From a virus, in the IMG/VR virus record IMGVR_UViG_3300021963_000034, positions 1 through 64,000 of that record: 64,000 bases of DNA, one strand, 5' to 3'. The notes beneath the pieces are model-generated. The model was not told the origin of the DNA. It was given only the letters and a program-made list of their open reading frames with translations, and ran no database searches. Below, in pieces: positions 5,273 through 41,592 of the stretch; position 1 is the first letter of the stretch, and every line of letters begins with the position of its first letter. The position numbers were made by a program, and so were the translations under genes.

Positions 5273-5409
5273 AACTAGGTGGTGGAGTCAAATGACCCTC
5301 GTTTGGTTTCTTGCTTTTCCATAAAAAAGCAAGTGGTGCGGATGGGACTCTCTCCCGCCTGGTTTCCAATTTCCAGTCAAAGAATTGGTGGCGAGCCTGA
5401 ATACTATAA

Positions 5410-5445
5410 AGAGAAGTTGCATAAACTTCTCTTTTTTTGTATAAT
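5410..5445 (+). promoter_or_regulatory. Composite terminator-promoter ahead of the glycan operon
   Basis: Hairpin AGAGAAGTT (5410-5418) / AACTTCTCT (5424-5432) with loop GCATA, followed by seven T: a rho-independent terminator. In the same bases TTGCAT (5417-5422), a 17-nt spacer and TATAAT (5440-5445) form a sigma70 promoter whose -35 lies across the loop. The upstream operon would stop here and the 15-kb glycan operon start. Confidence 0.75.
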
Positions 5446-5465: not shown

Positions 5466-6473
5466 ATGAAAAAAGCATTAATTACTGGTATTACTGGACA
5501 AGATGGTTCATACCTTGCAGAGTTACTTTTGAAAAAAGGATATGAAGTTCATGGCACAATCCGAAGAAGTTCTACTATTAACAATAGTAGAATTAATCAT
5601 CTATCTGATGATGTCTCCTTACATCACGCAGATTTAACTGATGCAACAAATATTCTTCATGTAATCCAAGAAGTTCAACCAACTGAAATTTATAATCTTG
5701 CTGCGCAAAGTCATGTAAAAGTATCTTTTCAAATGCCTGCATATACTGCAGAGGTTGATGCCTTAGGTGCCGTTCGCATTTTACATAGTCTTTGTATTTT
5801 GGGCATGGAAAAAGATGTTCGTTTTTATCAAGCATCAACTTCAGAAATGTTTGGTTTAGTTCAAGAAATTCCACAAAAGGAAACTACGCAATTTTATCCA
5901 CGTTCTCCTTATGGTGTAGCAAAACTTTATGGACATTGGATTACTAAAAACTATAGAGAATCTATGGGAATTCATGCAAGTTCAGGAATTCTCTTTAATC
6001 ACGAGTCTCCTAGAAGAGGAGAAACTTTTGTCACTCGTAAGATTGCAATTGGACTATCAAAAGTTAAAACTGGTCTCTTGGATTGTTTGCCATTAGGAAA
6101 CTTAAACGCAAAACGTGATTGGGGACATGCTAAAGATTTTGTAGAGGCAATGTGGTTAATGCTTCAACAAGATGTTCCTGATGATTATGTTATTGCAACT
6201 GAAGAGCAGCATTCTGTACGTGAATTTGTAGAACGATGTGCTCCATATTTTGGTATGAATATTGAATGGCATGGAGAAGATCTTGAAGAAATTGGTATTG
6301 ATACTGTTACTGGTAAAGTTGTAATTAGAGTTGATGATAAGTATTTTCGTCCATCTGAAGTAGAAACTCTTGTTGGAGATTCTTCTAAGGCAAGAGAAAA
6401 ACTGGGATGGTCTCCAAAAATTTCTTTCGATGATCTAGTTAAAGATATGTGTCTAAATGAATTAAAATTTTAA
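5466..6473 (+). CDS. gmd: GDP-mannose 4,6-dehydratase
   Basis: A 335-aa SDR-family enzyme. The NADP-binding motif is [14 protein letters not shown] at residues 7-20; [11 protein letters not shown] is a Gmd-specific cofactor/tetramer segment. The catalytic STSEMFG and [10 protein letters not shown] (YxxxK) are intact, and [16 protein letters not shown] is diagnostic of Gmd. It makes GDP-4-keto-6-deoxy-D-mannose, the branch point to GDP-fucose, rhamnose, perosamine and colitose. It is the first gene of the glycan operon and would feed the ColD-like enzyme next door and the Rmd-like reductase at 17020. Confidence 0.95.
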
Positions 6474-22144: not shown

Positions 22145-22181
22145 AGAGGGGCTTGACCCCTCTTTCTTTTTGCTATATAAT
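22145..22181 (+). promoter_or_regulatory. Composite terminator-promoter before hli
   Basis: Hairpin AGAGGGG (22145-22151) / CCCCTCT (22157-22163) with a CTTGA loop and a T-rich tail ends the porin transcript. TTGACC (22153-22158) in the loop and right arm, a 17-nt spacer and TATAAT (22176-22181) form a promoter for the hli operon at 22210. Confidence 0.78.
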
Positions 22182-22209: not shown

Positions 22210-22404
22210 ATGACTGTAACAACTAATGAGTATGGGCAACAAAACATGTTTGCCAAAGAACCGACAATGTATTATGAGAACTATGGGATGCTGTCTCCCA
22301 ATCAAGTAAAGGAGCGCACTAATGGACGCTGGGCAATGCTCGGTTTTGTTGCTGGTGTTATTTCTTATGCTAGCACTGGGAACTTCTTCTTCGGTATCTT
22401 CTGA
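22210..22404 (+). CDS. hli: High-light-inducible protein
   Basis: A 64-aa protein with the chlorophyll-binding motif ERTNGRWAMLGFVAGVISY near the C-terminus and one transmembrane helix. Hli proteins bind chlorophyll and carotenoid, protecting photosystem II in the thylakoid. They are standard cyanophage genes and fit with psbA and psbD here. First gene after a strong promoter. Confidence 0.95.
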   Translation: MTVTTNEYGQQNMFAKEPTMYYENYGMLSPNQVKERTNGRWAMLGFVAGVISYASTGNFFFGIF

Positions 22405-33240: not shown

Positions 33241-33285
33241 AAAAACTCAATAGTTTTTAAGACCTCCTTCGAGAGGTCTTTTTTT
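33241..33285 (+). terminator. psbA terminator
   Basis: Two adjacent hairpins: AAAAACT/AGTTTTT (33241-33258) and AAGACCTC/GAGGTCTT (33259-33266, 33273-33280) followed by T5. The second is a standard rho-independent terminator. Confidence 0.85.
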
Positions 33286-33293
33286 GTGACTAC

Positions 33294-33323
33294 TTGACTA
33301 AATACTTAAAGTTATGCTATAAT
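33294..33323 (+). promoter_or_regulatory. Promoter for the endonuclease gene
   Basis: TTGACT (33294-33299), 18-nt spacer, TATAAT (33318-33323), 27 nt before the endonuclease ATG. A CTAAATA late motif overlaps the -35 (33298-33304). Confidence 0.7.
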
Positions 33324-34189: not shown

Positions 34190-34224
34190 GGGCACTTGAA
34201 AACAGGTGCCCTTTCTGGTATGAT
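34190..34224 (+). promoter_or_regulatory. Composite hairpin-promoter
   Basis: Hairpin GGGCAC (34190-34195) / GTGCCC (34206-34211) with loop TTGAAAACAG. TTGAAA (34196-34201) in the loop, 17-nt spacer, TATGAT (34219-34224). The T-run after the stem is short (CTTTCT), so termination is weaker than at similar elements. Drives the gene at 34246. Confidence 0.65.
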
Positions 34225-34245: not shown

Positions 34246-34437
34246 ATGACCAACAACAAAGAAGTAGCACAAAAAGTTTATGAAGCATTCTGGAAAGATG
34301 AACCACATCCCTGTAATGTTGATGGATATGAGATTGCTAATGCTCTCCGTGAAGTAATCAACCAACTCCAACAATCTCCTGGTGTGATTTCTTGTCCCGA
34401 CCTCCTTGAACTTTGCGATGAGTTGGAAAATCTATGA
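34246..34437 (+). CDS. Conserved small protein
   Basis: 63 aa, soluble and acidic (VAQKVYEAFWKDEPHPCNVD, then ELCDELENL). Start 22 nt after TATGAT; overlaps the next start by 4 nt. Family unknown. Confidence 0.55.
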   Translation: MTNNKEVAQKVYEAFWKDEPHPCNVDGYEIANALREVINQLQQSPGVISCPDLLELCDELENL

Positions 34438-36492: not shown

Positions 36493-36518
36493 AAAGACCT
36501 CATTGTTGGGGTCTTTTT
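36493..36518 (+). terminator. psbD terminator
   Basis: AAAGACC / GGTCTTT stem around a TCATTGTTGG loop, then T-rich, 5 nt after the psbD stop. Confidence 0.8.
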
Positions 36519-36548
36519 TATTTACATAAGAACCAAAATATGATATTA

Positions 36549-36556
36549 TATAAATA
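36549..36556 (+). promoter_or_regulatory. Candidate late promoter of the third endonuclease
   Basis: TATAAATA 25 nt before ATG 36582, within an AT-rich stretch. Confidence 0.45.
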
Positions 36557-40644: not shown

Positions 40645-40683
40645 AGAGAGGGACTTGACTCCCTCTCTTTTTTTATGTATAAT
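40645..40683 (+). promoter_or_regulatory. Composite terminator-promoter
   Basis: Hairpin AGAGAGGG (40645-40652) / CCCTCTCT (40661-40668), loop ACTTGACT, then T-run. TTGACT (40655-40660) in the loop, 17-nt spacer, TATAAT (40678-40683). It ends the peptide operon and starts the thyX operon. The clearest of the set. Confidence 0.85.
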
Positions 40684-40706: not shown

Positions 40707-40892
40707 ATGGATCAAGAAAAGCTTAAGCTAATTGTCAGAAACCTTGAATCTCTGGTAGAATGTTTAAAGTCAGAGATTAGTTCTGATGAGGATTCTTTTA
40801 AACCAGAATTACAATATGAGGAAATTAAAAACTTTCTAAATGATTACGACGAAGTATTTTATGACGAGGAAGATGAATACAATGTTCGATGA
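40707..40892 (+). CDS. Conserved acidic protein
   Basis: 61 aa from ATG 40707 (a TTG at 40689 would add six residues). EKLKLIVRNLESLVECLKSE is a coiled-coil-like helix; the C-terminus is Asp/Glu/Tyr-rich. First gene after the promoter; overlaps thyX. Function unknown. Confidence 0.6.
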   Translation: MDQEKLKLIVRNLESLVECLKSEISSDEDSFKPELQYEEIKNFLNDYDEVFYDEEDEYNVR

Positions 40893-41592
40893 TTTTGAAT
40901 TTATGAAACCAGAAGTAAAACTAATTAGTGTTACTCCTGACGCAGAAAAGCATATGGCATATTGTGCTCGCGTAAGTAACCCTGCAAATCAGGAGAATGA
41001 AAAGTTCTCTGGACTACTCAAGTATTGTATTCAACATCAGCACTGGAGCATCTTTGAGCAAGCAAGTATGACTGTAGAAATTAATACTACAAGAGGTATC
41101 GCAGCTCAGATTTTACGTCATAGGTCATTTACATATCAAGAATTTTCGCAACGATATGCTGATGCTAATCTTCTGAATAATACTATTCCTCTTCCTGAAC
41201 TTCGTCGTCAGGATACAAAGAATCGTCAGAATAGTATCGATGATATTCCGGACTATCTGCGTCTAACTTTGACAGAAGATGTCCGCGTCCATTTTGAGAG
41301 TGCTCTACGCCTCTACAACCGCCTTCTGGAGAAAGGAGTGGCAAAGGAGTGTGCAAGGTTTGTACTGCCCTTAGCAACGCCTACAAGACTCTATATGACC
41401 GGTTCTGTAAGGTCATGGATCCATTATATTGATCTTCGTTCTGCACATGGTACACAGAAAGAACATATGGAGATTGCAGAACTTGTTCGCTGTATCTTTA
41501 CCTGCCAGTTCCCTGCGGTATCTGAAGCACTTGGTTGGACTCGTGAGGGATGTGTAGAATGTGTTGATCCACCTTCAGTCACTATTGAATAA
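40882..41592 (+). CDS. thyX: FAD-dependent thymidylate synthase
   Basis: 236 aa from ATG 40882 (GAGGAAG 10 nt upstream; ATG 40873 or 40903 are alternatives). The ThyX motif RHRSFTYQEFSQRY is at about residues 73-86. TGSVRSWIHYIDLR and AHGTQKEHMEIAE are also conserved. It makes dTMP from dUMP using methylene-tetrahydrofolate, NADPH and FAD. Standard in T4-like cyanophages for phage DNA synthesis. Confidence 0.95.
   Translation: MFDDFEFMKPEVKLISVTPDAEKHMAYCARVSNPANQENEKFSGLLKYCIQHQHWSIFEQASMTVEINTTRGIAAQILRHRSFTYQEFSQRYADANLLNNTIPLPELRRQDTKNRQNSIDDIPDYLRLTLTEDVRVHFESALRLYNRLLEKGVAKECARFVLPLATPTRLYMTGSVRSWIHYIDLRSAHGTQKEHMEIAELVRCIFTCQFPAVSEALGWTREGCVECVDPPSVTIE

Follow-up and report, generated by a model that had tools for sequence, protein, structure and literature searches.

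The window analysed here, a stretch of DNA 64,000 bases in length, is the first part of the 153,555-base virus record IMGVR_UViG_3300021963_000034. Its genes include psbA, psbD, hli, td and a nucleotide-sugar epimerase gene, and its sequence matches phages of Synechococcus and Prochlorococcus; gene content and phage matches together mark the source virus as a T4-type cyanophage. At all four loci where an earlier note had placed them, direct reading and RNA folding revealed a hairpin, a T-run and a TTGNNN-17-TATAAT or TTGNNN-17-TATGAT pair on shared bases of the plus strand. The element at 40645-40683 reads TTGACT-17-TATAAT. Its predicted terminator hairpin (40645..40668) has nine perfect pairs and the loop CTTGAC, with a T-run continuing to 40674, in the order AGAGAGGGA-CTTGAC-TCCCTCTCT, then TTTTTTATG, then TATAAT. 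The -35 (TTGACT, 40655..40660) begins inside the loop and is separated by a 17-nt spacer from the -10 (TATAAT, 40678..40683); downstream lie a small ORF (40708..40892) and then the thymidylate synthase gene (40840-41592).

The other three elements, likewise read directly, follow the same plan. At 22145-22181, a hairpin of seven pairs with the loop CTTGA (22145..22163) contains the start of a putative TTGACC-17-TATAAT promoter (22153..22181), with hli (22210-22404) downstream. At 5408-5445, a hairpin of 11 pairs with the loop GCATA (5408..5434) is overlapped by TTGCAT-17-TATAAT (5417..5445), which precedes a gmd-like nucleotide-sugar epimerase gene (5466-6473). At 34190-34224, a hairpin of nine pairs (11 by folding) with the loop AAAA and a short T-run (34190..34211) is overlapped by TTGAAA-17-TATGAT (34196..34224), upstream of an ORF at 34246-34437. 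The title of the earlier note places the -35 in the loop; TTG truly lies there at 22145 and 40645, whereas at 5408 the TT is part of the stem and the loop starts with the G, and at 34190 TTG belongs to the ascending arm and AAA to the loop.

Folding energies at 5408, 22145, 34190 and 40645 were calculated as -12.7, -11.9, -17.4 and -14.9 kcal/mol, with z-scores of -5.0, -3.2, -4.9 and -4.1, respectively. Each site has the anatomy of an intrinsic terminator (a GC-containing stem, a short loop and a T-run, the last being short at 34190) as well as that of a sigma-70 promoter (hexamers 16-18 nt apart, with 9 to 11 of 12 consensus matches), and the terminator end falls within a few nucleotides of the -10. 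The proposal that one compact element is both a predicted terminator and a predicted promoter holds up; as described below, the element is far above chance and is conserved among cyanophages with compensating changes in its arms. Moreover, all four hairpins sit between co-directional genes, a layout consistent with the suggestion that the element would end one transcription unit and start the next.

Nested and tandem forms coexist in this genome. In the tandem form after psbA (33259-33323), the predicted terminator (33259..33280, plus strand) comes first, and TTGACT-18-TATAAT starts 13 nt past the stem; after psbD (36493-36549), TTTACA-17-TATTAT starts 4 nt past the stem at 36493..36516 on the same strand.

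Register and chance

Both strands were scanned with a rule requiring TTG, 17 nt, at least five of six matches to TATAAT, and a hairpin with T-run across the spacer. The window yielded exactly four elements, all on the plus strand and none on the minus strand, against a mean of 0.005 and a maximum of one in 200 dinucleotide shuffles; the recurrence reported earlier therefore stands against a shuffled background. Outside the window, the scan found two further simple nested elements in the record, at 116143 and 119620; with a bulged element at 64949, this brings the known nested elements of the whole record to seven. The design was also found to recur beyond this virus; S-PM2, for one, has a nested element ahead of hli at 124302. 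Across 11 cyanophage genomes (the source genome and ten others, S-SCSM1 being covered for 220,000 of 228,827 bases), 26 elements have a spacer of 17, counts that are not independent as the phages are related, and the same genomes hold 31 elements in total over twelve other spacings (11-16 and 18-23), or about 2.6 each.

Random re-pairing of the terminator halves largely abolished the 17-nt coincidences. In the strictest set, 22 were observed against 2.5 expected, with a maximum of 8 in 1000 trials; in two laxer sets, 25 fell to 3.4 and 27 to 5.0. Furthermore, TTG was present in 13 of the 30 cases with a perfect TATAAT 23 nt on, compared with 329 of 11850 otherwise. The shuffles, the re-pairing and the counts of TTG at 23 nt together rule out a chance origin. 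No general enrichment of TTGA in the loop was detected among cyanophage hairpins (10 of 114 with a -10, 20 of 286 without), and by eye many hairpins of the group without a -10 resemble chance ones. The idea that loops favour TTGA regardless of any promoter was likewise rejected, TTGA being enriched only in register; the coupling of hairpin and promoter resides in the register only.

Homologous loci and a bulged class

Loci homologous to those of Hli, the Gmd-like protein and Td were taken from IMG/VR (80 each) and counted when at least 100 nt lay upstream. Under permissive thresholds, nested elements were found upstream of 61 of 78 hli, 38 of 80 gmd and 46 of 76 td homologues, or 145 of 234 in total; the td search reached 700 nt upstream, such that some elements precede a gene upstream of td, and one gmd form (two loci) has no proper T-run. 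Although spacers of 16-18 were allowed, all 145 loci, representing 109 distinct forms, have a spacer of 17. The element at 34190 is poorly conserved: of 68 homologues, only 3 have a similar one upstream, and judging by this distribution it is a young or local instance.

Changes in one hairpin arm are matched by compensating changes in the other, with TTG and TATAAT remaining constant. All forms compared had been selected for the presence of a hairpin, so the share of paired cells is inflated, the double changes less easily so. For gmd, 24 of the 32 forms were compared; 213 of 216 cells were paired, against 42-68% when the partner was slid, and 29 cells carried double changes, against 1-9. Six pairs with double changes were seen in hli register 2 (25 forms) and five in td register 3 (13 forms), each against 0-2 when slid; hli register 4 (16 forms) gave one such pair, too few to inform. 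A single function, whether as a promoter with a chance palindromic spacer or as a terminator that happens to precede an AT-rich stretch, is highly improbable on these data. Some hli loci (e.g., L146 and L192) do keep the promoter at spacer 17 with the hairpin gone, as a promoter of that kind might, and the promoter thus seems the more constant part; compensating changes that hold the arms paired around a fixed TTG and -10, together with the loss of register upon random re-pairing, speak against a single function.

An open scan of viral contigs for TTGACNCCCCTNTTTTT, a gap of 0-12 and TATAAT, which permitted spacers of 11-23 and made no demand on the ascending arm, matched at least 120 stretches. 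Among the matches listed, 80 loci comprised 75 at spacer 17, three at 16 and two at 20. The simple hairpin rule accepted 29 of these 80 listed loci. One locus lay too near an end to be folded; of the other 79, 78 formed a strong hairpin. In 44 of the listed loci, the TT of TTGAC is paired and the GAC is bulged from an otherwise paired descending arm, for example in GAGGGGC-AACTGG-CAAAAT-CCAGTT-GAC-GCCCCTC-TTTTTT-TATAAT. These loci form a second class, in which the descending arm holds the -35 and the bulge looks as though the -35 had forced it; overprinting of one signal on the other predicts a stem that tolerates a bulge at precisely the position where GAC is required.

In SynMITS9220M01, S-SM2, S-SCSM1 and Bellamy, the bulged design is followed by a small conserved gene; S-RIM4 and S-RIM8 contain a similar bulged fold. 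The small conserved protein (MTIKLLLLKSGEDII...) follows the element in many contigs (L588-L667) and at 121655 in S-SM2, where the gene on the upstream side resembles, by eye, a small heat-shock protein. In the present record, the bulged element (64940-64990, referred to here as 64949) reads TTGCGT-17-TATAAT and lies upstream of a GIY-YIG-like gene, a label given from sequence reading alone.

Related composites in other phages

Composite units of an early promoter and a stem-loop, termed PeSLs (promoter-early stem-loops), are described from T4-type phages and said to mediate gene shuffling in the available part of one publication, which cites Arbiol et al. 2010 and Comeau et al. 2014 as sources (PMC4503421). 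The elements studied here resemble PeSLs in anatomy, joining a sigma-70-like early promoter and a stem-loop terminator in one intergenic composite. Their maintenance as homology patches for recombination, by which genes would be shuffled as cassettes, has this precedent in its favour; nevertheless, the seven copies of the record are only 36% identical outside TTG and the -10, where about 27% is expected from base composition, compared with 61% among KVP40 copies, so they offer little homology and, in this respect, differ from PeSLs whose copies are alike enough to recombine. The hli and td loci, moreover, keep their elements across phages, and we regard such a role as very unlikely.

Nested elements also occur in other T4-type phages. 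KVP40 (240,000 of 244,834 bases) has eight at spacer 17 and five at 18, RB43 (180,000 of 180,500 bases) eight and two, and Aeh1 one of each. As in the cyanophages, the TTG of KVP40 and RB43 lies in the hairpin, and the spacer of 17 or 18 consists of the descending arm and the T-run; the differences are that their -35 occupies the part of the ascending arm that borders the loop, their -10 is mostly TATTAT or TATATT, and the KVP40 copies resemble one another, whereas the cyanophage copies do not. RB49 displays the tandem form, its -35 lying downstream of the T-run instead of inside the hairpin. Comeau and colleagues reportedly treat the KVP40 group in their 2014 PeSL paper and may already have observed the nesting; for this reason, the element is classed as a nested variant of the known T4-type PeSL composites. 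In the part of the literature covered, no paper describing a -35 within a terminator loop was found. The host-like early promoters of S-PM2 and Syn9 have the same sigma-70-type -35 and -10 and are, in the accessible sections of the report, presented as promoters alone (PMC2984593), and the available text of another paper mentions S-PM2 stem-loops as few and apart (PMC4503421).

Scans of T4, RB49, 44RR, T5 (120,000 of 121,750 bases) and SPO1 returned no nested element at spacer 17 or 18; T4 is without them even though its relatives KVP40 and RB43 have many, and the layout thus differs sharply within one phage family. Among the cyanophages, Syn9 and S-RIM8 have no simple nested element by the scan rule; S-RIM8 has one of the bulged class, and in Syn9 these rules detect neither class. 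As to inheritance from the host, a sample of 78 cyanobacterial loci covering the neighbourhood of psbA (1.41 Mb, 439 hairpin-T-run sites) contained no element at spacer 17 and one at 18, and on this sample such an origin was rejected. One of the original 79 psbA loci, L386, was excluded from that sample; labelled as a Gammaproteobacteria MAG, it encodes a D1 protein 96% identical to that of the phage and is likely a misbinned cyanobacterial or phage contig.

Proposed overprinting and possible late-promoter signals

We consider the element to be, with a probability of about 85%, a sigma-70-type early promoter overprinted on an intrinsic terminator within approximately 40 bp. The free loop of the terminator, or its edge, would hold the fixed TTGNNN of the -35, and the 17-nt spacer, largely free in sigma-70 promoters, would accommodate the descending arm and the U-tract (about 8 + 8 nt). 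A polymerase arriving from upstream should halt where the T-run ends, immediately ahead of the -10 or on it, and initiation should start a few nucleotides past the -10, which would leave the hairpin out of the new mRNA. The likely cause would be selection that favours short junctions between genes together with strong early promoters, and the overlapping design probably saves space. Indeed, the median lengths of nested junctions are 97 in the cyanophages, 77 in KVP40 and 79.5 in RB43, shorter than the tandem medians of 122.5 in the cyanophages and 110 in RB49; gene ends were assigned from ORFs by a simple rule, and among the cyanophage tandem cases a length was obtained for only 8 of 19. Early use of such promoters would fit what the available portions of one study state of cyanomyoviruses, which are without the T4 polymerase-modifying genes alt, modA and modB and whose early genes are thought to use the unmodified host polymerase and sigma-70 motifs (PMC2984593).

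The earlier note had read the exact 17-nt spacing as the sign of a switch. Promoters keep 17 nt at the same loci even when the hairpin is gone, which runs counter to that reading. Seventeen nucleotides is the usual optimum of the sigma-70 spacer, so a switch need not be invoked, and economy explains the anatomy without one. A competition between RNA folding and promoter opening is also unlikely in the form proposed; it is the RNA made from upstream that folds into the hairpin, and transcription from the nested promoter should begin beyond it. The promoter does, by construction, lie in the path of polymerases from upstream, and one that passes or terminates there might occlude it. That read-through would thereby let upstream activity tune the downstream gene has little probability: terminators as strong as those predicted (-11.9 to -17.4 kcal/mol) should limit read-through, the downstream genes (hli, gmd, td and the GIY-YIG-like gene) are diverse with no common regulatory logic, and the promoters persist at the same loci without a hairpin.

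The closeness of the terminator end to the -10, within a few nucleotides at all four sites, would also suit recycling in place, wherein a host polymerase terminating in the T-run stays on the DNA and, since it already covers the -10 and -35, recaptures sigma and restarts, such that the upstream operon feeds the downstream one. Bacterial RNA polymerase can, according to the part of a report available, stay bound to the DNA once a hairpin has terminated it and start again from the nearest promoter (PMC11347151), and nested forms exist in more than one T4-type lineage. Tandem layouts, which are common in RB49, would permit recycling too, however, and space economy accounts for the same anatomy; we therefore hold recycling to be unlikely. 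On a further reading, the exact overlap would place a terminating host polymerase directly over the next promoter, and these phages would pass polymerases between successive early operons by termination and restart in place, without release; this seems quite unlikely.

The elements offer a clean case of one DNA signal written over another, probably under selection, and their register can be tallied in a large number of contigs. They are natural material for studying how polymerases are recycled once they have terminated, and they supply a ready rule for annotating early promoters and the borders of operons in cyanophages. Software that annotates the two kinds of signal one at a time will overlook how they are coupled.

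The late promoter of cyanophages and other T4-type phages has NATAAATA in place of the -35 and -10, as given in the available portion of the source (PMC2984593). TATAAATA is absent at all seven elements of this record, which rules out T4 late promoters as a general explanation, with a possible exception at 64949. There, the -10 runs into AATAAATA (N = A), matching the late motif, and the element may thus carry both early and late promoter signals. At 66250-66282 of the record, a predicted terminator is followed directly by TATGATAAATAAT, which contains GATAAATA; this is possibly a terminator joined to a late, instead of an early, promoter.
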